64,000 nucleotides of DNA from Ligustrum vulgare (lineage: Eukaryota; Streptophyta; Magnoliopsida; Lamiales; Oleaceae), in NCBI GenBank assembly GCA_963555705.1, contig OY743170.1:14485096-14549095 (forward strand), given 5' to 3'. The notes beneath the pieces are model-generated. The model had not been told where the DNA came from, searched no databases, and worked only from the letters and a program-made list of their open reading frames with translations. Positions 27,301 through 58,960 of the stretch are shown in pieces. The first letter of the stretch is position 1; every line of letters starts with the position of its first letter. A program made the translations under genes and the position numbers.

Positions 27301-27589
27301 GTATGTATTTCTTCTCTTCCAGTCTTTTGAACATGGTTGATTCATAGCCACTATTTGGTAGAGATGAAAATCAGATTTTTAACTAATTTTGATAAAAGTT
27401 GATTAGATGTGTTGTTAAAAAGTTGTGGAACCCATAAAATATATGGTCGTGATTAATTTTTTACTTTGACTTTAATAAAAATTTGATTTTTTTATCAAAA
27501 ACAAACAAGCCCATAGTATTAAATAGGATTGGCACTATGATATTACGATGGAGGGAAATTTAATTCTTTTTTATTCTAACAGTATCCAT
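27301..27589. other. Intron-like DNA before the MULE
   Basis: T-rich, non-coding. It ends at the possible MULE TSD TTCTTAAAG (27590-27598). Confidence 0.4.
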
Positions 27590-27859
27590 TTCTTAAAGGC
27601 TGCTTTGTTTAAAGGGCATGGTCAAACAAAAATTTCATTTAAAAAGACCCCTTCCATGATTTATTAGTTCAATAGCCTCTTAGTTGAGAAAAATGAGAAA
27701 ATGATTTATACAATTACCCAAATGTCCTTGAGTGCCAAACAAAACCTAATTCTTTCTTCCAATTCCCAAACGTAACCAGATGGGTCTCCTTCCTCTCCCA
27801 CAAACGAACATTTTAGCGCCAAACAGTTCTCCCTGCTCTTCCCTCTTCTCGAACCCAAC

Positions 27860-28560
27860 TGCACTTCCTTCTTTGAACCAAGAAATACATTGTCTTCCTT
27901 TGAGTAATAATCTTGTTGAAGTTTGGGAATCTATTTTGCAACATTGGTATTGGGCATTTGGAGAAGAAGAGAAGATAAGGTTTAATATGAAAAATATGTA
28001 ACCATTTTATATAAGCAATGTCTGAATCAAAACCTTCATGGTGTATTTTTGATTTTATGTTGTGATTATGCGCGTAACGATTTCGAAGTCGTTTTGGGCA
28101 TACGGATGTCGTTATTCTGAATGTATTCTTTTCATCGATATTTATGATAGTTGAAGTAATATTTATGTTGGTAAATACATGCTTCTAATCATATCTAAAA
28201 GTTGGAACAATATCTCCTTCTTTGAACCAATAAATACATTATCTTCCTTTGAGTGATTATCTTGTTGAATGTTGAAAATCTATTTTGCAACATTGGTATT
28301 GGGCATTTGGAGAAAAAGAGATTTAAAGGTTTAATCTGAACAATTTTAACCACTATATCTAAGCAATGTCTGAATCAAAACCTTCATGATGTTTTTTTTT
28401 ATTTTATGTTGTGATTCTGTGTGTAACGATTTCGAAGTCATTTTGGGCATACGGATGTCGTTATTCTGAATGTATTATTTTCATCGATACTTGTTATTGT
28501 TGAAGTAATATATATGTTGTTAAATACATGCTTTGCATCATATCTAAAAGTTGGAAAAAT
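27860..28560 (+). repeat. Two-copy tandem repeat (about 345 bp) in the MULE left subterminal region
   Basis: The block CCTTCTTTGAACCAAGAAAT...TTGTGATTATGCGCGTAACG...ATATCTAAAAGTTGGAA occurs at about 27867-28215 and again at about 28219-28562. Each copy includes GTAACGATTTCGAAGTCGTT then TTGGGCATACGGATGTCGTT, that is, the AACGA...TCGTT motif also found many times in the central inverted repeat. Confidence 0.85.
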
Positions 28561-28645
28561 ATCTGAAGCATGTTGTTTGCATTTCTGTTTCACCGCAGTA
28601 AGATATTGCATGTTTTACTTAAAAAAGCTATTTTGAATTGCAGTT

Positions 28646-31119
28646 ATGGACAATGTGGATATGGTGTGGATATCAGCATGTTACCCAGGTGAGTTTGAGC
28701 AGAATCTTGAAGGTATATGGATATGGAAATATGTGGGGAATGAAAGAGGGAGAACATTTCCTATTCTTGTTTCGAGGATGATTTCGTATGTAGAATTGTA
28801 TGACAAAGTGAAACAGGAGCTCAACATTGATTCAAGGCTACATGAAATAGAGATGGCATGTCCTTCCCCAATGATATCTAAGATTTCAATAGCATCGATT
28901 GTCATTGATTGTGATAACAATGTGAAGTGGTTTATGTCGGTATGTGGAGAAACACCTCTATGCATAACTCTTTTGAAAAAATCTCCTAGAAATCGAGAAT
29001 GGATTGATCTTGATACATGTGTATCGCGAGTGGGGCGTGAGAAAGAAGTTGAAAATATGAACACAGAGGGAGATGTTGTGCAAAAGGACAATGTTGCGAT
29101 CGATGGCAATGATTGTGGAATGTTGTTAGATTGGGACGATTTTCATGTAATTCGAGATAGCCCTCAAAGGCCAACTGCACAATGCTTGGGAGCCATGGAT
29201 GATGTCGGGTTGCCTGAAATTGAACCTTTTAGTCAGACAGGAGCAGGTGACAATAATGCTGATTTGAGTGAACCTGACTCCCATACTCAGAATCTTGCAG
29301 ATGAAAATATTGATGGCCAAACAAATTAGGGCTATTCGCAGGCTGTAGTTTCAAGTTTTCCTTCTGTCCATTACGGTTCGTCTGTAAGAATTCCAGAAGA
29401 CGAAGATGTTCAAGCAAAACAGTTGTTGTTTCCAACAAAGAATGCCTTGACAGAAAAATTGCAGTGGCTTGCTCTGAAGTGTCACTTTGAATTCAAAGTT
29501 AAAAAGTCAAATAAGAGCATTTATATAGTTGTTTGTGTAGAGGAAAACTGCAAGTGGTGGTTGCGGGCAACCAAAATGAAAAATTCTAATATCTTTCAAG
29601 TTCGAAAATATCAAGGTCTTCATAATTGCTCTAAGAGTGTTCGTCGCAAAGACCATAGGCATGCGTCCTATATGGTTATTGGAAATCACATTGTCTCAAA
29701 GTATCAAGATGCCAACCGAATTTATAGGCCGAGAGATATTATTAACGATGTTCGTCGAGAACTTGGCATAACGATAAGTTATACCAAGGCATACATGGCG
29801 AAAGATTATGCTACTGCATTGATTCGAGGGAATCCCCGTGAAAGTTATGCTAAATTGTCATCGTATTGTCATATGTTGGAGTTGCAAAATCTAGGCACCC
29901 AAACATTCATTCGGACTACTAGAGAGCAGCGTTTCAAATACTTTTTTATGGCATTGGGACCAAGCATATGTGGATTTCTTACCTCGATTCGACGAGTAAT
30001 TTCTGTGGATGGGACATTCTTGACATCGAGTCGAAAAGGTACTCTACTTTTAGCAACTTGTTAGGATGGAAATTACCAAATATATCTGCTCGCTTGGGGA
30101 ATAGTAGATTTAGAAAATAATAAGTCGTGGACATGGTTCTTTAGGAAGTTGCAAACAATTACAGGTGATACAGATGACCTTGTGATAATTTCCGACCGTG
30201 CAACAAGCATTAAACATGGCTTTCAAAAAGTTTTCAAGCTTCCCCATCATGGAAATTGTATTTACCACATCCAAATGAACCTGAAAAGTCGATTTCCACG
30301 TTGTGATCTTGTACATTTGTTCATGACAACAGCGAAGGCTTATACAGTCCCTGAATTTGAGAATTATTTGGTAGCATTGTTAAGTAAGAATGACAGAATT
30401 AAGGACTACTTGCTAGAAGAAGATTATCGTTATTGGTCTAGAGCGCACTTTGATGGTATACGGTACAATATCATGACCACAAACAATGCAGAGACACTGA
30501 ATGGTTTGCTGAAGAGTGTTCGATATTTTCCTATAATTGGTTTGATTAACCATATCCGAGAGACACAACAAAGGTGGTTTTATAAAAGACACGTCGAAGC
30601 AGGGAAATGTGCGACCATTCTCACCCCAGCTTTGGAAAAGAAGATGTGCATGAAATATAATGAATCGAATGGTTTGGACGTAAATCCCATTTCTCCGAAC
30701 ATTTATGATGTTGGTAACAATTTGTGCCGCCACATTGTCGACTTGGATGCACAAAGATGTACATGCAAGAAGCTTGATCTTGACAGGTTCCCATGCGAGC
30801 ATGCAATTGCTGCGATAAGATATAAAGGGGATAATGGTTACAGTATATGCAGTCCCTTTTATACTACTACTTATTGGAAGCAAGCATATTCTGAGTTTGT
30901 GTATCCTTTGCCGAACGAAGCTGAATGGAAAGTTCCGGAGCATGTGATGTCCAGAAATGTATTACCACCTTTGAAGCGAAAAACAAAGTGGTCGCCCATC
31001 AAAAAAAGAGGAAAAGATCGGCTGGAGAATCACGCAATCCTCGCAAGTGCAGTAAGTGCAAAAAATCAGGTCATAATAGGTCCACTTGTACGAGTGAAAA
31101 ACTTCTTTTTTTATTATAA
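28646..31119 (+). pseudogene. mudrA-like: MULE transposase (mudrA type), broken by two TAG codons and a frameshift
   Basis: One + strand frame runs from ATG 28646 to about 31000, interrupted only by TAG at 29327-29329 and TAG at 30062-30064. Order: an N-terminal domain typical of these transposases (residues 1-140), an acidic linker, the DBD-Tnp-MUT DNA-binding domain (about 260-345, with C..NCKWWLRA), and the MULE catalytic domain. Its DDE residues are present: Asp in SVDGTF (codon at 30008), Asp in ISDRAT (30194), Glu in NNAETLN (30491). A SWIM zinc finger follows, with CTCKKLDLDRFPCEH near 30768-30812. A frameshift in the run of A residues near 31001-31015 moves the C-terminal zinc knuckle CSKCKKSGHNRSTC (31048-31090) into the next frame. 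The enzyme would cut and paste the element in the nucleus. The second TAG replaces a residue inside the highly conserved DGN.QIYPLA-like strand, most simply by a C-to-T change in a Gln codon. Confidence 0.92.
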
Positions 31120-31191
31120 TTTCACTTTCATATGCTCTTTTGCTATTGTATTTGTTGTATTGGAACGATGTTGTAGTCAATTTATATCGTT

Positions 31192-34100
31192 CTAAATTTG
31201 TGTTCAATGATCACGTACAGAAATTGTCATTTTTTGTCCAGAAATGATAGCTTTAATGTTCTAGTTATGAATGTACCATGCAGTGTTTAATCTACGCATA
31301 ACGAGTTCTAATTCGTTACTTTGTACACAAAAGGATTTTAATGCCGTTCCCGTCAAACAAGACAAATAACAACATCGAATTCGTTCTGAACTATATTAAA
31401 TATGGTTACTTAGTAAACCACACTGCCTCTTACATTTTCAAAGTAACGACTTCAGTGTCGTTCTCAACGACATGAATGTCGTTACAGTTGAAAAACCTTT
31501 CTGCTTAACTGTTGCTCATAACGACATATAAGTCGTTACTTTGTACACAAAACAATTTTAATGTCGTTCCCGTCAAACAAGACAAATAATAACATCGAAT
31601 TCGTTCTGAACTTTATTAAATGTCGTTACTTAGTAAACCACACTGCTTCTTACATTTTCAAAGTAACGACTTCGGTGTCGTTCGGAACGACATTAATGTC
31701 GTTACAGTTGAAAAACCTTTCTGCTTAACTGTTTCTCATAATGACATAGAAGTCGTTACTTTGTCATACTAACGACATAAATGTCGTTACATATATTTAC
31801 AGATATACCCTCATCGTGTCTTATTTCCCAATGGTCGACAAATTCACACTAACTTCTGAAGAACGATGTTGAAGTCGTTGTAACGACTTCAAATCGGTTA
31901 TCATCTGAAAGGTCGTTCCATTGTAAATGTAACAACAATGAGCTCGTTTACGTAGAAAAAAGCCTAAAACGATGTTGATGTCGTTCACGTTTCAGCAGAA
32001 CGAGTTATAGATCGTTATGTTTCAGTGTCATAAAGTCACGTAACGATAATTATATCGTTTGTTTGTACATTTAACGACATTAAGCTTGTTCCAGTGTACT
32101 TTACTACTAAAACAATATAAATACCGTTTCTTCAATAACAAAACTATATTGGAATCGTTATGTTCTTGGCCGAATAAATATCATAATGAGTTAAATGTCG
32201 TTCTTTTGTGATTCTAGCGAAATTCATGTCGTTCCAGTGTAAATTATTACTATAACATGGTATATATCGTTACCTCGTGTGAAGCACAACATGTATATCA
32301 TTATGGCGCAAATCGTCGATTTGATCGTTCCTTGTCGTCCAAAGTTCCTCCAACAAACGTAATCTATCAAAAATGGGTCATAGAAGGTGATTCAAACACC
32401 TTGTAAATAGACATGATGAGGAAGACTTGATCAAAATGAGATGGAGAAGTTCCAAGGTAATAGTTATCTAAAGGAACTTATTTTGATCATCTCTTCCTCA
32501 TCATGTCGATTTACAAGGTGTTTGAATCACCTTCTACGACCCATTTTTGATAGATTACGTCTGTTGGAGGAATTTCGGACGACAAGGAACGATCAAATCG
32601 ACGATTTTTCGCCATAACGATATATATGTCGTGCTTCACACGAGGTAACGATATATACCACGTTATAGTAATAATTTACACTGGAACGACATGAACTTTG
32701 CTAGAATCACAAAAGAACGACATTTAACTCGTTATGATATTTATTCGGCCAATAACATAACGATTCCAATATAGTTTGGTTATTGAAGAAATGATATTTA
32801 TATTGTTTTGGTAGTAAAGTACACTGGAACAAGCTTAATGTCGTCAAATTTACAAACAAACAACATAATTATCGTTACGTGACTTTATGACACTGAAACA
32901 TAACGATCTATAACTCGTTCTGTTGAAACGTGAACGACATCCACATCATTTTAGGATTTTTTCTACGGAAACTAGCTCATTGTTGTTATGTTTACAATTG
33001 AACGACCTTTCAAATGATAACGGATTTGAAGTCGTTACAACGACTTCAACATCCTTCTTCAGAAGTTAGTGCGACTTTGTCAACCATTGGGAAATGAGAC
33101 ATGACGAGGGTATATCTATAAATATATGTAATGACATTTATGTCGTTAGTATGACAAAGTAACGACTTCTATGTCGTTATGAGAAACAGTTAAGCAGAAA
33201 GATTTTTCAACTGTAACGACATTAATGTCGTTCCGAACGACACCGAAGTCGTTACTTTGAAAATGTAAGAAGTAGTGTGGTTTACTAAGTAACGACATTT
33301 AATATAGTTCTGAACGACTTCGATGTTGGTATTTGGCTTGTTTGTCTGGAACGACATTAAAATCTTTTTGTGTACAAAGTAACGACTTATATGTCATTAT
33401 GAGCAACAGTTAAGCAAAAAGGTTTTTCAACTGTAACGACATTCATGTCTTTGAGAATGACACTGAAGTCGTTACTTTGAAAATGTAAGAGGCAGTGTGG
33501 TTTACTAAGTAACGACATTTAATATAGTTCTGAACGACTTCGATGTTGGTATTTGGCTTGTTTTCCTAGAACGACATTAAAATCGTTTTGTGTACAAAGT
33601 AATGACTTATATGTCGTTATGAGCAACAGTTAAGCAGAAAGGTTTTTCAACTGTAACGACATTCATTGAGAACGACACTGAAGTCGTTACTTTGAAAATG
33701 TAAGAGGCAGTGTAGTTTACTAAGTAACGACATTTAATATAGTTATAAACGACTTCGATGTTAGTATTTGGCTTGTTTGCCTGGAACGACATTAAAATCG
33801 TTTTGTGTACAAAGTAACGACTTATAACTCGTTATGCGTAGATTAAACACTGCATGGTACGTTCATAACCGGAACATTACAGCTATCATTTCTGGACAAA
33901 AAAATGACAATTCCAGTACGTGATCTAGAGATGGCAAAAAAATCCGATCCGCCCCATCGATCCGTTGACCCGATCCGATCCGATCCGAAAAAATCCCGAT
34001 CCGTGGATCGACGGATCGAAATTTATGTGATCCGCTCCGATCCGAAAATTCACGGAGCGGATTTAGATCGGGGCTGATCCGATCCGCCCCGATCTGCGAT

Positions 34101-34515
34101 CCGAGATTTTTTTTTAATATAATTTTTTTATCATGTATAAAATTCTAATATGTAAATTTTGTAGCAAACTTTAATTTCTGGGAATAACCTACAATCTTTG
34201 CATTTTAAAGAAAACACATTTTTCATGTTATTCATTTGAAGAAAGAATTCCAATAAGTGATCGCAAAAAAACTCGATCCGCTGAATCGGCGAATTGGCAT
34301 CTATACGTCTCGTTTCAATAAAATAAAAAAAATAATTTTTCTAAATTTTTTTAAAAAGATTTAATTTAAAATATATTTAAAAAATTTTAAAAAATTAAAA
34401 AAATAAAAAATAAAAATTGGCGGATCGGTCCACGGATCGGTGGACCGATCCGCCCCAACCCGAACCCGATCCGCCCCATTACCAACACTAACGTGATCAT
34501 TGAACACAAATTTAG
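31192..34515. repeat. Giant inverted repeat between the convergent MULE genes
   Basis: The left arm, 31192-32453, starts CTAAATTTGTGTTCAATGAT. It is inverted in the right arm, 32473-34515, which ends ATTGAACACAAATTTAG. A loop of only about 19 bases (32454-32472) separates them. Without the hAT MITE (33926-34490 plus TSD) the right arm is about 1.47 kb against 1.26 kb. The excess is one extra copy of a 220-bp internal unit (three copies near 33170, 33390 and 33610; two in the left arm near 31480 and 31720). Both arms are built from dozens of AACGAC / GTCGTT motifs, many forming small palindromes such as AACGACATTAATGTCGTT. The transposase frame ends at the arm boundary. The transcript would fold into a hairpin of more than 1 kb. 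Confidence 0.93.
33926..34490. mobile_element. hAT-type MITE with GATCCG subterminal repeats
   Basis: It is flanked by the exact 8-bp TSD ACGTGATC at 33918-33925 and 34491-34498. Its terminal inverted ends are TAGAGATGGCAA and (inverted) TAGTGTTGGTAA. The 8-bp TSD and TAG...GGCA-like ends are hAT characters. Both subterminal parts are rich in GATCCG/CGGATC repeats (33945-34110 and 34420-34480); the middle is AT-rich and non-coding. It inserted in the right arm of the MULE inverted repeat after the arms had formed. Confidence 0.92.
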
Positions 34516-34729
34516 TTAACTGCTATATACAATCCACAGCCAACAAAAACGTTCATTGTTTTCATAACTACCACATAACATTCATATCCTAAATATACTT
34601 GTTCATTGCTAGCCTAACTGCCACGAACGAGACACTTCACAATACAAACCAATCAACCATCAATCCATCTAACAAAAATGCTCAAAAAGATTATGTCTAA
34701 AACAAAACCGCCATATACATCGGTAAACA

Positions 34730-37509
34730 TTAAGGCTCGAAGTTCCACGCCAGTAACTCTGCAACTAATTTCTTCCGCCACATTGGTATGCATTCAATGC
34801 GGATTTCATTGACGTCCATTTTGGCTTGGAGAAATTCAATATACTTCAATGCAAGCATCCCACAATCAGATCTACGCAATTGAAAAATTGTTAGGTTACT
34901 TATCAAGACGGCAAATAGAAACTAGGTTTAAAAAAAAATTGTAATCTTACCCATTTCTTTGTTGCGGCACCTTATCAATCTTCACAAAGTTGAACTTCTC
35001 CGTGCTGTAATGCTCATTCGATGTGGCATGAAATTTAATCAACAAGGGAATAACCTCCTGTAATGGCAAGATGAATGTCTCCAAAGCCGCCCTACGCATA
35101 TGACCCTTCAAACTATCGAACATGAAAATCGTGCGTTGCTCCAAATCGATTTGTAATGCAAACCAGTGGTCGTTGCTATTGCATGGGAGATACAAATGTT
35201 TGCAATCCTTTCAAGGCTTTCCTAGTTCTGGAGCAGCTCCCAAGACGTAATTCAGCAGACTCTTACTGCATTTGAATTCCTTCGTCTGTGACAACGCTTC
35301 ATGTGCATTCCAAATGAACCGGTAAAAGTATGTGTCCAAGATACTGCAGTTTTGTTGGAACACATTTGGATACAACCTAGCTCTGTCACGCATTTGGTAC
35401 AGGGCCTCTTCAATAATCTGTACCTATAAAAGTTTTTAGTGGAAAATAACTTCATTAGCACTGTTTTGTAAGAGCACTGAAATTGATTACTTAAGTTTCC
35501 AGTTAACCAACTGTCCTCATTCAAAAGGTTTATCAAATTTTCTGCGGAAATATTGGTACAATGTAGTGGTATAATCTGACTACACACATAACAAAATAAT
35601 TACAACATGCTTCATATTATGAAAAAAATTGTTAATTTCAAATGTAATATAAGCTATATGTATCAGATTACCACGAAGATACATCTTGAAGCCATCTATC
35701 CAGCACTTCCAATTTTGAAGGATCAACTTCGCGATATGGATCAAACTTGTCAACCACCTCCAGCTTTCTCCTCTTTGTCAGATCCATGAAGGGCGAACAT
35801 AAATATTGTATTTTTCTCTTTGTTCGATGCCCCCGTCCTTTCGGTGGGTCAGATCCTACCTCTTGGATCTGTACACTTTCACCTACATTTTCATAACAAT
35901 TGAGTAAATAATGACTTTGTGTTTGATGCGATTATATGAAAATTAACTAATGACTTATTAACTAACATACCTACACTGGACTGGGTAGCATCCCCCTCAC
36001 CTATCTCTGGTGTCTGAAATCTAGTTTCTTCCTCTCCCTCCTCTCCTTCAACATCCACTTGTTTTCCTTTCTCAATCTCCTATCTGACTTCCTCCTCCAT
36101 CTTTCTGGTCCCTTTGTTATCCATCATATCACTGCTCGGTACATAGGATGCACTGCTAGTGCCACCCAAAAATGCACTAGGTGTTGAATGAGATTGACTT
36201 TTCTCGGCCAATTCAATGAACCGATCAATTTTGTGCTCCATGCGATCAAAACGGGCAGTTAACACCCCTAGTAGCCTTCCCTCAACTTTCTCCATTTCAA
36301 TTCTTACCAAGTTTGCTAAGTTGAGGTCAGAAGGTACGGATGGTGGTTGAGATGGCCGAGGTGAGTGTTGCTCGTCAACTTGCTCAGGCTCATCTCCCTC
36401 AGACTGATGAGAATCATTCTCATCTTCTTCCTCATCCACTGTCAATTCTTTCCAATATGTCTCCTCCATTTCAGCTTCGTTAGGAACCAGTCTAGATTTA
36501 TCCTCCAACTGCAAATATTAAGTTAAACAGAAAATTAGGGATTAAAGTAATTCATTTCCACAATCCAAGCCTATTATATTTATTTTAAAATCCCAAATTT
36601 ACCTCTCTTGATCGCAACACCTTGTCAACAGCAATCGATCTCAATCTCTTCGGATATTTCCAGGCAACCATTCTTGGAGTTGCATCTTCATATTTCTTGG
36701 CAAACTTCATTCCCAAGCTTGGAATTGCCTCAAACGCCCAAATCTGTTTTAAGTAAAATGAACATCATTATCTCACGAAAATAAATTTATAGTCATAACA
36801 TAAAACAAAGATAGGTGTATAGTTCAATCATACCATAATTGATAGGGGAAAGCCGTGTAAGGAATATCTCCAACGAGTTGCTCCCCCTACATCTGAATTT
36901 TTTACTTTACTTCCCATCTCGCGCTTGAATACATTAATCGTGTATTCAAAACATAACTTCCCCCATGGATACTTCTCGAACCTGTCGAGATCATCTACAA
37001 GTTCAAACCACCATAGATCCGTGTATGTGTTCTCCCTGGGGCCCATAGGACGTATGCCAGTATAACGAGCAAACCCAACTTGTATTTATCAGTCTTCCGC
37101 TTCTTGCAACTTAGAAATGCACTATACACATCCCACTTTGTTATTTTTCCCTTACTCTTCTTAAATTATTCCTTTACAATCCTACACTCTGCCCCCAACG
37201 TCTTATCAACATGTGTAGTCCCTCATGCATTTAACCCAGTGACTAATACGAATTCCTCAATCTCAAACCTAGCACGCTTCTCTCCTATCTTAAACCATAC
37301 TTCATTTTTCTTCAAAGTCTTCGCCACTCTCAAAAGTAATTGATGAACAACTTGCGAGGCCAACTTAATATCTCGTAATCTTAGAAGAGATCCAAAACAA
37401 CTCTCCTAAAATTTATTCTTATGATTTGGATCCAGCTTCTCAAACACCTTATTCACCATTTTCAATTTGCATCTTGTTGTTATTGTAGCATCGGTCTGCA
37501 AATTCTCCA
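34730..37509 (-). pseudogene. Ulp1-like cysteine protease gene of the MULE (DUF1985 + peptidase C48)
   Basis: Read on -, a degraded DUF1985-like N-terminal region (about 37509-36828; LYFELV-like and DLDRFEKYPWGKL..EYTI blocks) is followed by exons at 36746-36604 (KFAKKYEDATPRMVAWKYP), 36514-36080 (acidic, EEDE-rich), about 35880-35668, 35580-35480 and 35430-34951. The last exon is 34871-34730. The catalytic domain has His (codon at 35166-35168, NDHWF), Asp (35116-35118, FDSLKG) and Cys (34862-34864, SDCGM). The final intron 34872-34950 has GTAAG...GTAG borders and splits the Gly codon before SDCGM. A TGA at 35211-35213 replaces the Trp of the usual GKPW motif. Ulp1 proteases cleave SUMO-like modifiers; the role in transposition is unknown. 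DUF1985 contains several stops. Confidence 0.87.
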
Positions 37510-38749
37510 TAGCACTGCAAAACATAATCTATCATATAATTAGTTTCAAAATACAAAACAATTAATTATGATAGTTGCAGTATATAACAGTAAGAACCTA
37601 CAAAAGTTTTGATGTCAATGGCACTCATTATTTGCTTACACTCTTTACTCTTGGGGCATTAACTAATGGCCATGATTATTGTCAATTTAATTCTCCTAGT
37701 TATAAATTAGGTTGTTTTATACGAGGACAAGGCATAATGTAACTAGTGTCTAACTATAGTGATATTGAGAAAATTTTGTGAACAAGATGCGAGTTACTTG
37801 TGTAGTGCAACAGTTTCAACGTGTTAATATGTAAAATAAATAGAAAAATGGGGCTTAAACAAGGGCAAGGATTGCAGGGTCTTTCACTCTTAGGTCCAGT
37901 TACTCTAATCAAAAGTCCACGCTCATATTTTCCTAAAATCAAATGACTAAATACAACACCCCGTATAATAATAATAATCTAAAACCGAATGAATCTAAAA
38001 CTCCTATAACCAACTCATTTCTATGATAAAGTATAAAATAGATCAATCAATTAAGTGAATCATAACAAAATAAATTAGAAAAAATTCTTACACAACATGA
38101 ATAACCTCATTACGAAAATCAGCAAAATGAAACATTTCAGCCATCAAAACATCCAACCCAAAAACTGTGCTTCTGTGTATGTGTCTCTCTGTCCTCATGC
38201 GTGCGTGTGTGAGATAGAGATAGATATAGAGATTGGGTTGGGTTGGGTTGGGTTTGGGGCAGGGGAGATGCTGAAGGGGGTGGGGAACACACTGCTTACC
38301 TTCAAATCTTCCGCCGATTGCAGAGGTTGCAGAGAGTATTCGGTCGGAACCTTAGCAAGCAAATGAAGAAGAATGGCAATTGCTATCGACAGAGATGCGG
38401 CGTGCCTAGATGGGAGAGACAACAGATATGCAAAGTAGAAAGCTTTCTATTTCTTTCTCTGAAAAAATGGTCGTCTTCTTCGCCCTATAAAAGTTGGAGA
38501 CGGGCCACTATCGTTGGAGAAACAAGAGATGGAGGCGTCGCTGTTCTTGAAGAGTTTGAGCCCGCAAGAAAATTGGTTGAAAATGAGAAGGAATTCAAAA
38601 ATATTAGGTTTAGGCATTTGGACAAAGTAGTCTTTTAACACGTAACTTAATTTTCCTCTTTTTATTTTTTGCTCTTATTTATTAATTTTTGGTCAAAGGC
38701 TATTTAGACAAATATTTTGTGTATGAGGGTCACCCCAACTAATTCCCCT
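37510..38749. other. Upstream region of the Ulp1-like gene and right MULE end
   Basis: No convincing gene. It holds a run of TTGGGTTGGG repeats at 38235-38258 and AG/GA-rich tracts at 38205-38232. Short frames on both strands between 38195 and 38640 are mutually overlapping and unrecognised. It ends at the possible TSD TTCTTAAAG (38750-38758). It is probably the promoter side and degraded TIR of the element. Confidence 0.45.
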
Positions 38750-38810
38750 TTCTTAAAGTCAACCTTAACCTATGAGATATTTCTATGTTTGTTGTTTCAA
38801 TGTATATGCA

Positions 38811-54263: not shown

Positions 54264-56259
54264 TGTAACGACCAAGAATTTTTACGCATTTAATAATTAT
54301 TTTAAATCGTTGTCGCTGCTATGTCACCCATTTTTATTAAGTTAACGCCACGACGCGTTCGTCTAGCCAAGTCGAGAAATGTTAAATCCATTCGATTTTA
54401 ATTTAATTTTTCGAATTTCTAAAATTATATTATTTTAATTATTTATTCAAAGTATTATTTTCAAAATCATTTTAAATTCCAAATTTATTAAAATATCTCA
54501 ATTTTCCTTATTAAATTATTTTAAGTCCAAGATACGTAATTCAATTTTATCTCAAAAATTATTTATTCTCAAATTTATTTTAAGTCCAAAATATATCAGT
54601 TTTAAATACATTTTCAAATCGAAGTTAGTCTAATTTTTAGTTAATTATCCTAAATTTAATCCTACCTAATTAAACCAAATTTTCTCCACATGTTTTCTTC
54701 TTTCCACCAAGGCAACAAATCTTTACACCAAAACATCATCATTTTGTATAAAGAATTTTACACCATTTTCCATTTCATATTCCACCTAATTCTCCACTAT
54801 CCTATTCTATAATACCTAATCAATACATATATTCCTCTTCTTCCCCATCACAACTCACATTCACAAACACCAAATTTGTCCTCCCCCCCCCCCCCCTCCC
54901 CCAAACATGTTGCTCATTCTTTCTTTATTCTTCTTTCCACCTCATTATACAATCACCAAAGCATTTCCCACTAATCTTTACACAATTCCATCATCCTTCC
55001 ATATCAAACAATCATGATGTCTTCCATTAATCATTTATTTTTCTTTCTCTTTTCCTTTAAGACATCTTCCTCCCACCTTCATTTTCCATCCTCTCTCCCT
55101 CTGCACAAACCACACCCGAGCACCCACTTCATCCTCACACTCCAACCTAACACAATCTCACCAAACTCCCATCACCTATATCATCATCATCACCCAACCG
55201 AGACTAGAACCAACCTGCACCATCATCACCATCACCACAATCAACCATAGCCAACAACACCACCACAATTCTAAATTTCAGCAAGCAGCCAAAACTCGAC
55301 AAAGAACAGTCTCACCACCACTCTGCCTCCTTCCTAATCCAACCACCATTACCACCAACGAATCTATATCAATCCGCCACTTTCACCACCAGTTTCGCCA
55401 ACCAGCAACCATGTCACAACCATCCTCATTACAAATTTCAATACAACCAAATATCACTCCACCAATCACCACCGGTGAGTTCCTTATTGCTTGCCCTGCC
55501 TTCTAACTGTAAGGGTCAGAGGCAGATCTATACTATTGATCTATATCCCTGGCAAAGGCCAATTCTATGATCCATCAAGGGCTTCAGCTGAATATACTAA
55601 GCTCAAGCTTTCATTATGCCACCTAGCAGCAAGCTCCAAAAACGCCCGCCAACAACCACCTCAACCAAGCCTCATTTGCAACCAGTCAGAAACACCACAG
55701 TGCCACCACCACGCTGCCAAACCATCTCCAATTGAACCCCAAATCAAACCAAAAACCCAATAATAAACGAATCCCAGTTACTTACCTCGACCGCAGACTG
55801 AGTTACCGAAATTTTACCACCGAAAAATCGTGATTTTGAGCTTCGATTCAGCCTCGGTCTTGCACCCAATCAGCCCCAGATCCTAGCCTACTTGCACCCT
55901 CACCGCTCGTTGTAACCGGCGCCGGCGAAAATCACTGGCCGGACACCATTTTCGCGAGAGGCAGCTCCGGTGAAAAAAAAAAAAAAAAAATCTCCAGCCT
56001 CTGGGTCGTGAGAGAATAATGAGAGAGAGAGAGAGGGAGAGAGATAAGAATCTGATGTTTAATATTTGGGAAAAGTACATAACTATACAACTAAAACTTT
56101 CATTTTTTAAACATAACAAACTTAAATTTTTTTTGTAAAAATCAGGTCTTAGTATGTTAATTAATTAATACAATATTATAATAATTATAATGAGTTGACA
56201 AAGAAAGGTATAATATTAAATAATAAAATAAAAACAATATCTAATCCACAACCACTCCA

Positions 56260-57955
56260 TCCCAATCTAACTCTCCACCCACCCCACCCCACGGGCACCC
56301 ACCCCACTCCACCCCACCCCATAAAATAACTTTTTTCCTTATACTTTTCCACACTCACCCCCACCCCCAACATCACCTTACCCACCCCACCCAACACTCC
56401 TCCCCAACCCCACCCACCCACGCACCCAACCACCCCGCCGCCACTCACTCACCCACCAACCCCACCACACCACACCACACCACAAGAATGATGTTACTTC
56501 TATTTTTTTCTCCCCCCACCCACCCACTAGTCCCATCCCATCACACCCACCCACCCACCACTCCATCTCAACCCAATCCAACTCAACCCCGCACTCACCT
56601 CACTCCACCCCGACAACCCACCCCCACCCCTATCCCACCCACCCCACGACCCCACCTCAACTCAATAAATGAATTTTTTCCTTCTACTTTTTCACACTCA
56701 CCCCTACCCCCGACACCAACTTATCCACCCCACCCCATCGCACCCCTCCCCAACCCCACCCCACCCACCCCCACTCACACACCCCACCTCAAATCAATAA
56801 ATGAATTTTTTCCTTCTACTTTTTCACACTCACCCCCACCCCCGACACCAACTTATCCACCCCACCCCACCCCACCCCACCCCCACTCACCCACCCACCC
56901 ACCCCCACCAAATCACACCATAAAAATAATTTTACTTCTATTTTTTTCTCATCTCAAACACCCACCCGTCCCATCCCACCCCACCCCACTGCTCCCCAAA
57001 CCCAACCCACCCACCCCTAATCCCACCCCACCCTATCCCACCTCCACCTCACCCAAAATGATTTTTTCTACTACTTTTCCACAACTCGCCTAGACCCTAC
57101 CATATCCTACCCCGCCACCTACGCCAACCCCACCCACCCCACCCCACCCCACCAAAAATTAAATTTTTTGCACTAATTTTAGACTCCCCCATCAGCCTTG
57201 CCCCAGACCCTACCCCAACCCACCTCATCCAAAATGATTTTTTTTACTACTTTTTCACGACTCACCCAGACCCTACCCCGTCACTCATCCCCAACCCCAC
57301 CCCACCCAAAATTAATTTTTTCTCCTAATTTTTCACTCCCGTACCCACCCCCGCCCCGACCCTACCTCGCCACCCACCCACCCCATCCTACCCCACCAAA
57401 ATATGATTTTTCTTCTATATTTTCACACCCCACCCTAACAACCCCACCAGACCCCACCCTAGCAACCCCACCACAACCCACCCCACACAAAAATGATTTT
57501 TCTTCTATTTTCTCACACTTCACCTCAACCGCCCCATCCTATCCCACCATACCCCCATCCAAAAATGATTTTTCTTCTATTTTTTACACCCCTCCCAACC
57601 ACCTCCACTCCATCCAAAAATATTTTTCCCCAACCACCTCATCTCATCTCACCCCACCCACCCCACCCACCCAAAAATTAATTTTTTTCTTCTACTTTTT
57701 CAACCCCCAACCCAACCTAGACCCCCACCCACCCACCCACGCCACTCCAAAAAAATTATTTTTTTCTTCTACTCTGACCCACCCTACCCTACCCCCACCC
57801 ACAAAAAAATGATTTTTTTCTTCTACTTTTTCAACCTCGATCCCCCCACCAACCCACCCACTTCGACCCTACCTCACCACAAAAAAATGATTTCTTCTAC
57901 TTTTTCTAGCCCCACCCAACCCCTACCCCACCATCCCCACCCCCAAAATCACAGT
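56260..57955 (+). repeat. CCCACC-type minisatellite, 1.7 kb
   Basis: C-rich blocks (CCCCACCCA, CACCCCAACCC) alternate every 50-110 bases with AAATGATTTTTTCTTCTACT then TTTTCACAC. There is almost no G on the + strand. Pro/Thr/Ser-rich open frames (56488-57093 and 57198-57812) are produced by the repeat and are not genes. The - strand has many closely spaced GGG/GGGG runs able to form G-quadruplexes. Confidence 0.9.
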
Positions 57956-58960
57956 CAGTCACGTAAGTTGACACGAGATCGCAGTTAAGTTACACAGAGT
58001 CACAATTGCAAATTTAGTTGTAAAATCTCACCCCTCCAAAGTCACAGTTGGTCACACAAGGTCAAAGTTCGATCACACAAAGTCGCAGTTTGGTCAAACG
58101 TGGTCACAGTTAGGTCACAATTAGGTCAAACGAGGTCACGGTTAGATCACACGTGGTCACAGGTCGATCACATAAAGTCACACTTCGTTCTTACAAAGTC
58201 ACACTTCGGTCACACATAGTCATATTTGACACAATTGTAGGTCACATCACGTCCTCGTCCAATGGTCACACCAAGTCACAATTGGTCACAAAAAGTCACA
58301 GCTGATCACACAAGGTCACAGTTCCATCACACAAAGTCACAGTTAGGTCACAATTGGTCACACAATGTCACGGTTTGGTCACACAAGGTCACAGTTTGGT
58401 CACACGAGATTACAGTTCGCTTACATAAAGTCACAGTTCGATCACACGAGGTTACAATTCAGTCATACAAGGTCGCAGTTAGGTCACATAAAGTCACAGT
58501 TTGCATACACACATTTACAGCCCAATCACATAAAGTCACAATCACCCATAATCTCACCTAGACACTAGCCTACCCACCCACGAAAATGAGTTTTTTTCTT
58601 CTCTTTGAATGTTTTCTCACCCTACCTTGTCACCCCCACCCCAACTGACCTCACCCATAAAGTGACAATTGATCACAAAAAATCAAAAATCACAATTGTA
58701 TGTCACATCACGTCCTCATCCAATAGTCACACAAAATCAAAGTTAACACAAATTGTAAATCACAATTACAATTTTACTCACAAATCAAATTTTGTGATTG
58801 ATAATTTAATTAAATTGATCACATCTCATGCTCGTCACAAGTCGCACAAAGTTACAATCAATCAATAATTGGTCACAATTACCTAATAAACTGGTCACAT
58901 TTTGTACTCGTTACAAGTTGCAAAAGGTCACGCTCGCCTAATAATTGGTTACAATCATCC
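57956..58960 (+). repeat. GTCACA tandem repeat array, about 1 kb
   Basis: About 40 or more short units of the type CACAAAGTCACAGTTNGATCA / GGTCACACAAGGTCACAG, average spacing 13-28 bases, degrading towards the right. It directly abuts the C-rich minisatellite. The short frames it produces (VTVRSHKVT-like) are repeat artefacts. Confidence 0.9.

Follow-up and report, generated by a model that had tools for sequence, protein, structure and literature searches.

In Arabidopsis, the VANC proteins of VANDAL elements contain a DUF1985 domain, bind short motifs arrayed within tandem repeats of noncoding DNA, and remove methylation from the element; different VANCs recognize different motifs (PMC5735166, PMC10398659). 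The motif of VANC21 is a 9-mer, and its published occurrences lie in one orientation (PMC5735166). KAONASHI/KIU genes are described as Ulp1-containing VANC genes that act in a similar manner (PMC13317346). Long MULE TIRs have been linked to siRNAs (PMC6446971), VANDAL noncoding regions are RdDM targets (PMC10398659), and Mu killer carries inverted mudrA/TIRA (transposase plus TIR) sequence (PMC3440606). These statements, like the comparisons below, follow the accessible portions of the respective sources.

We analyzed a stretch of 64,000 nt from Ligustrum vulgare (the window), which contains a MULE with a transposase gene, a convergent DUF1985-Ulp1 gene, and, between the two, a giant inverted repeat built of arrayed copies of the 18-bp dyad AACGA-N8-TCGTT. 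Like the KAONASHI (KI)/KIU Vandals, this is a non-TIR MULE whose Ulp1 gene runs opposite to the transposase (PMC13317346, PMC2528002); it also has a central palindrome, which the accessible portions of their descriptions do not mention. With the VANC21 and VANC6 arrays it shares a MULE without clear TIRs, a DUF1985 protein, and a dense short motif in noncoding tandem repeats whose copy number changes and whose units evolve together. It departs from VANC21, with its one-orientation 9-mer, in that its dyad is symmetric and lies within a giant inverted repeat between convergent genes. In the accessible open-licence literature, we found no MULE described as having a central palindrome of dyads. 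The first-pass annotation had instead compared the repeat to Mu killer (PMC3440606). Both are MULE-related inverted duplications able to form a long hairpin, and this part of the analogy stands, if the repeat is transcribed. Unlike Mu killer, the repeat is present in many elements rather than in one rearranged copy, and no 16-mer of its arms recurs in the remainder of the window's element (genes and ends), which weakens a role as silencer and makes a Mu killer-like attack on the genes unlikely. We rejected assignment to this class of silencers, since the arms are not inverted transposase or TIR sequence. The features of the element are as follows (window coordinates):

27589-27597, + strand: left TSD, TTTCTTAAA, identical with the right copy at 9 of 9 positions
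27598-38748, no strand: whole element, an 11,151-bp non-TIR MULE
27866-28564, + strand: tandem repeat of ∼350-bp units, each with a single dyad, upstream of the transposase
28637-31119, + strand: MULE transposase region (DBD_Tnp_Mut, MULE, SWIM), from ORFs and Pfam
31192-32456, + strand: left arm, 19 dyads at ≤1 mismatch
31300-31757, + strand: tandem ∼220-bp units in the left arm, dyads at 31300, 31520, and 31740
32441-32476, no strand: spacer of 36 nt between the innermost listed arms
32457-34515, − strand: right arm (interrupted), 22 dyads at ≤1 mismatch
33918-33925 and 34491-34498: the two copies of the 8-bp TSD ACGTGATC of the hAT-like insertion
33926-34490, no strand: hAT-like insertion of 565 bp in the right arm
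34733-37405, − strand: KIU/VANC-type gene (DUF1985 plus Ulp1 protease), from Pfam
34733-34921 and 34950-35210, − strand: Peptidase_C48 pieces of this gene, from Pfam
36831-37085 and 37226-37405, − strand: DUF1985 pieces of this gene, from Pfam
38749-38757, + strand: right TSD, TTTCTTAAA, 9 bp

The bounds of the element were obtained from alignments of its copies, and both ends are present: it starts with GGCTGCTTTG and finishes with CTAATTCCCC. Ungapped comparison of the ends in inverted orientation yielded 45% identity over 20 nt and 39% over 200 nt. Long terminal inverted repeats are absent, as in non-TIR MULEs, and the TSD lies within the 8 to 11 bp of the Mutator superfamily, to which the element belongs. 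Perfect 9-bp TSDs flanked five of the seven copies tested (the window copy, C3b, C2, C7b, and C6; C21, C11, C5, and C12 lay outside this test). The TSD of copy C7a matched at 8 of 9 positions, and none was found for copy C1.

Pfam bore out the earlier claim of a MULE with a transposase on the + strand and a convergent Ulp1-like gene on the − strand. PF10551, PF03108, and PF04434 all scored above the Pfam cutoff in the transposase region. The window's transposase is broken by an in-frame stop inside the transposase domain and by a frameshift near the C terminus, as judged by comparison of the zinc-knuckle frame with copy C11. In the opposite gene, PF02902 (C48) scored 59.2 bits; the two DUF1985 exon pieces reached 32.1 and 26.0 bits singly, below the cutoff of 35.1. 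Among the matches listed, DUF1985 scored 83 to 95 bits, above the cutoff, in seven other copies of the same family (e.g., 93.0 bits at C6:7138431). A DUF1985 plus Ulp1 (C48) gene opposite to the transposase is the arrangement of KIU/VANC-carrying MULEs, and convergent transposase-DUF1985 pairs within 10 kb, read by eye among the matches listed, accompanied at least 12 of 40 transposase matches. Since the zinc-knuckle frame stops at 31119, ∼70 bp short of the left arm, and ∼220 bp separate the right arm from the end of the C48 frame, the 3′ space between the genes is mostly occupied by the repeat.

The repeat had been annotated as a giant hairpin-forming inverted repeat, and ungapped arm pairs of 91 to 94% identity together with RNA folding confirmed this. 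The pairs comprise 31297-32312 with 32606-33621 (1,016 nt, 93%), 32310-32440 with 32477-32607 (131 nt, 94%), and 31230-31470 with 33663-33903 (241 nt, 91%). Folding of the central 996 nt (31960-32955) as RNA gave −742 kcal/mol compared to a mean of −210 for shuffled sequences (n = 20; z, −69), so that the repeat between the genes would, as had been proposed, form a long hairpin if transcribed. Arm identity and the folding energy relative to shuffles ruled out a chance palindrome. The dimensions given earlier needed correction: the right arm is interrupted by the hAT-like insertion, and the innermost listed arms are separated by 36 nt, part of which pairs further inward in the predicted fold. 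The insertion belongs to the window copy alone and lies outside the family's repeat, as alignments of other copies jump from ∼33925 to 34491. The repeat proper thus measures 2,759 bp. In some comparisons the cut made to skip the insertion was placed 5 nt late, so that the right arm of the window was five bases too long there; the border listed above is exact. The right arm exceeds the left by about one ∼220-bp tandem unit, which is likewise made of dyads. The sequence of the 565-bp insertion is rich in GATCC.

Exact AACGA-N8-TCGTT occurs 20 times in the repeat, whereas exact pairs of AACGA and TCGTT at spacers of 0 to 7 or 9 to 23 occur there zero times. At ≤1 mismatch the repeat contains 41 dyads, compared to a first-order Markov expectation of ∼0.25. 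Elsewhere in the window (60.7 kb) there are two, both in the ∼350-bp tandem repeat upstream of the transposase (28076, exact; 28425, with one mismatch), and the part of the element to the right of the repeat has none. Genome-wide, 6,143 exact dyads were counted versus 1,859 for the reversed control pattern. Dyad starts are spaced by 31, 38, 31, and 43 bp or by 31, 37, 77, 21, and 54 bp, within tandem units of ∼143 and ∼220 bp. Helical phasing at 10.5 bp was moderate (mean cosine, 0.29 to 0.49 in the four AACGA loci examined) and serves as no argument for the reading that we favor below. The observed/expected ratio of CpG was 1.59 for the whole repeat, 0.79 with the dyads masked, and 0.55 to 0.75 in genes and flanks; the CpG excess therefore comes mostly from the motif itself. 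Dense occurrence of a short, family-specific motif in noncoding tandem repeats that vary in number characterizes VANC target arrays, and the repeat shows it. As the motifs are not in one orientation, being symmetric dyads in inverted arms, the array is a variant rather than a plain VANC array.

The genome (1.385 Gb in 51 contigs) was searched for related MULEs with the same central repeat, and these were found. Ten copies selected by matches to the repeat were fetched with 10 kb per side. In all ten, the repeat occupied the same position, flanked by the transposase and, on the opposite side, by the − strand gene or at least a portion of it, and nine retained both arms. Copy C12 had lost one arm and part of the − strand gene; in copy C21, whose two halves were joined with base C21:37561150 absent, a long insertion had split off the right arm, the inner end of which is missing. 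Sampling was also based on the transposase: 40 of 357 candidates were scored, 21 of these 40 adjoined repeat matches, and 5 of the remaining 19 without a repeat match were fetched (L035 to L039). All five contained the dyad array, which was reduced in two: L035 has just the outer portions of arms like the window's, with inserted sequence between them (13 dyads), and L038 has a shrunken repeat (12 dyads). L036, L037, and L039, here called family D, carry a different-looking but equally large palindrome (best self-match, 94.5%, 95.9%, and 87%; 49, 60, and 46 dyads, respectively). Its dyads are kept while the intervening sequence has turned over, and blastn against the window arms yielded fragments only. 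No MULE copy with the same genes and without the repeat occurred among the ten repeat-chosen and five transposase-chosen copies. In L036 to L039, the 3′ ends of the transposase are 91 to 93% identical to the window's and the DNA of the Ulp1 gene is only ∼72 to 80% identical; the two halves of these elements differ in their histories.

With the repeat at the same place in 10/10 copies and the dyad array in 5/5 transposase-chosen copies, the repeat is not a later insertion, and the earlier suggestion of a fold-back element that had inserted into the MULE between the genes was rejected. The repeat also arose before three related families diverged, as a tree built from 35 arms showed. The 21 arms of the window's family (family A) formed one clade (100/100) and the 6 family D arms another (100/100), each with left and right arms mixed; right arms of a further family, B (L018, L029, L030, and L031), were sister to A, and B left arms fell outside. 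The topology indicates that the palindrome predates the split of families A, B, and D, and that the arms were rehomogenized in A and D, not in B. Conversion between arms also continues within single copies. Derived states present in exactly two of 18 arms numbered 44 (columns with ≥16 letters; copy C3b was left out of this count), of which the two arms of a single copy shared 17, while arms from different copies shared 15 (same side) and 12 (opposite sides), compared to a chance split of 9:72:72. In copies C1 (L017/L018) and C7b (L023/L024), the palindrome loop is flipped with respect to the genes on either side, a sign of recombination between arms.

Constraint on the dyads was most evident in family B. 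Between the arms of L018, half-sites differed at 19 of 200 positions (9.5%), other positions at 156 of 516 (30%), and dyad spacers at 60 of 160 (37.5%), and none of 875 circular shifts of the labels gave a half-site divergence as low. Ungapped blocks yielded 19/180 for half-sites, 115/434 for other positions, and 54/144 for spacers (0/757 shifts as low). Since each dyad contains two CpGs, which should be the first to go in methylated DNA, conservation of half-sites runs counter to neutral decay. Family D and window arms were ∼60 to 64% alike in a forced alignment, with half-sites again best kept, although such A-to-D comparisons may be biased by a motif-driven alignment. In family A, half-sites had no clear advantage over the rest: with left-arm classes, the window arms differed at 24/250 half-site, 112/816 outside, and 9/200 spacer positions, and with right-arm classes at 33/270, 100/780, and 12/216. 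CpG transitions made up 75 of 188 single dyad mismatches in nine family A repeats (the window and eight fetched copies, with C21 and C12 left out), 11 of 49 in family B, and 19 of 79 in family D. We read the family A pattern as probable post-insertion decay of silenced copies, combined with conversion.

Family B looks young, as its four copies are 98.3 to 98.8% identical over the repeat; in L018, where the two arms were compared, they match each other at just 73%, and near-perfect arm complementarity is thus not required for spread. To the left of the repeat, L018 has sequence resembling the right end of the element (5940), and to the right a ∼150-bp stub of the Ulp1 (KIU) gene followed by the inverted 5′ region, which runs off the fetched DNA ∼100 bp before the terminus. 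For the transposase, tblastn gave no significant match in L018:5091-10000. L018 is probably a nonautonomous derivative composed of ends and palindrome. If the other B copies resemble it, these parts would suffice for spread in trans.

Considering the integral position of the repeat, its dyad array, the conserved half-sites of family B, the conversion of the arms, and the presence of both genes, we regard it as probable that the central inverted repeat is the cis target array of the element's own KIU/VANC-type anti-silencing system. Which protein binds, its dimeric binding, and hypomethylation are the parts that we infer. The DUF1985 plus Ulp1 protein would most likely read AACGA-N8-TCGTT, probably as a dimer, and ∼40 dyads between the genes would concentrate the predicted reader there. 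From the array, the whole element would lose its DNA methylation in cis, as would relatives in trans. With a symmetric motif, the array could function in both orientations and palindromic doubling would be tolerated; the palindrome could then convert its own arms, so that sites stay alike while the array expands and renews itself. Against this stand the one-directional motifs of VANC21, the scores of the window's single DUF1985 pieces below the cutoff, the clear array in only one of six other DUF1985 loci (below), the half-sites of family A, not clearly better kept than the rest, and the much-reduced arrays of L035 and L038. If the anti-silencing reading is true, it offers a directly testable, sequence-specific demethylating system with a symmetric site, and arm-to-arm conversion in a palindrome would be a second route of target turnover. 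It provides a predicted recognition site for an anti-silencing protein of the KIU/VANC type, together with a naturally occurring array, for which the sister families and the probable nonautonomous derivative can serve as internal controls. A giant hairpin in a transposon, moreover, is not necessarily an RNA silencer.

The same dyads might be sites of the transposase, forming an internal assembly or titration platform for transposition. L018, which seems reduced to ends, repeat, and ∼150-bp KIU stub, and the ∼98% identity of the four B copies over the repeat indicate that the array travels with the ends, and two dyads lie upstream of the transposase. However, MURA-type transposases act at element ends, whereas the array is central rather than terminal and the stretch from the repeat to the right end lacks any ≤1-mismatch dyad; we consider this explanation unlikely. 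Sites of MYB-like proteins have an AACG core, and for a host factor of this kind the array could serve both genes as enhancer or insulator, in agreement with symmetric, dense sites between two genes and some helical phasing (0.29 to 0.49; 0.71 at L040, see below). A different DUF1985 family has a different motif array (GTCACA), and since element-encoded readers fit this better than a single host factor, we hold a host factor to be distinctly unlikely.

The strong predicted hairpin, as well as the ties of long MULE TIRs to siRNAs and of VANDAL noncoding regions to RdDM in the accessible literature (PMC6446971, PMC10398659), would suit the view of the first-pass annotation, in which read-through hairpin RNA yields siRNAs limiting the element or its relatives. 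Yet the arms share no 16-mer with the coding regions or ends, family B has spread with 73% arms, and what is conserved there is the 10 half-site positions of each 18-bp dyad rather than pairing itself, and we give this view little credence. Satellite expansion and palindrome formation without coding constraint, a neutral by-product, would be consistent with the varying number of tandem units between arms and copies and with the family A half-sites. It is already disfavored by the half-site comparison in L018, where the two-CpG half-sites are the best-kept positions, and is most improbable. Small RNAs from the hairpin are plausible in themselves, and the palindrome may combine protein sites for anti-silencing with a source of hairpin siRNAs as a built-in switch, with conversion keeping the sites uniform. 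This dual role is a tentative possibility, rather doubtful on present evidence; if true, it would represent an inverted-repeat route to target arrays, as opposed to the tandem-repeat route in Arabidopsis.

Across the genome, 150 of 2,382 candidate DUF1985 loci were scored, and six beyond the families above were sampled (L040 to L045; L044 and L045 spanned only 3 kb and could miss a distant array). All six had a convergent transposase match (31 to 58% identity by segment), and one, L040, had a clear motif array: 25 GTCACA in one orientation in three clusters, with 9 scattered in the opposite orientation. The clusters lie between the genes, in a gap of the transposase match (maybe an intron), and before the C48 match. 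Phasing at 10.5 bp was strongest here (mean cosine, 0.71; 12 gaps), and L040 contained no palindrome. In L041 to L045, no array exceeded the control stretches of the window, and the largest palindrome was 58 bp (L042). From the AACGA families and this one family, we infer that a symmetric site may permit a palindromic array, while a directional site would stay tandem.

A 21-bp satellite at window positions 57999-58894 is dense in GTCACA in one orientation, and its core is the same as in the L040 arrays; no match to the transposase query was found near it. In Arabidopsis, AT9TSD1 comprises motif-bearing repeats affected by VANC6, according to the accessible part of its description (PMC5735166), and like AT9TSD1 the satellite is a motif-bearing repeat outside a VANDAL-type element. 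Adjoining the satellite, C-rich CCACC/CCCAC tandem arrays occupy 56278-57932, and the GC skew of 56001-58000 is −0.79.
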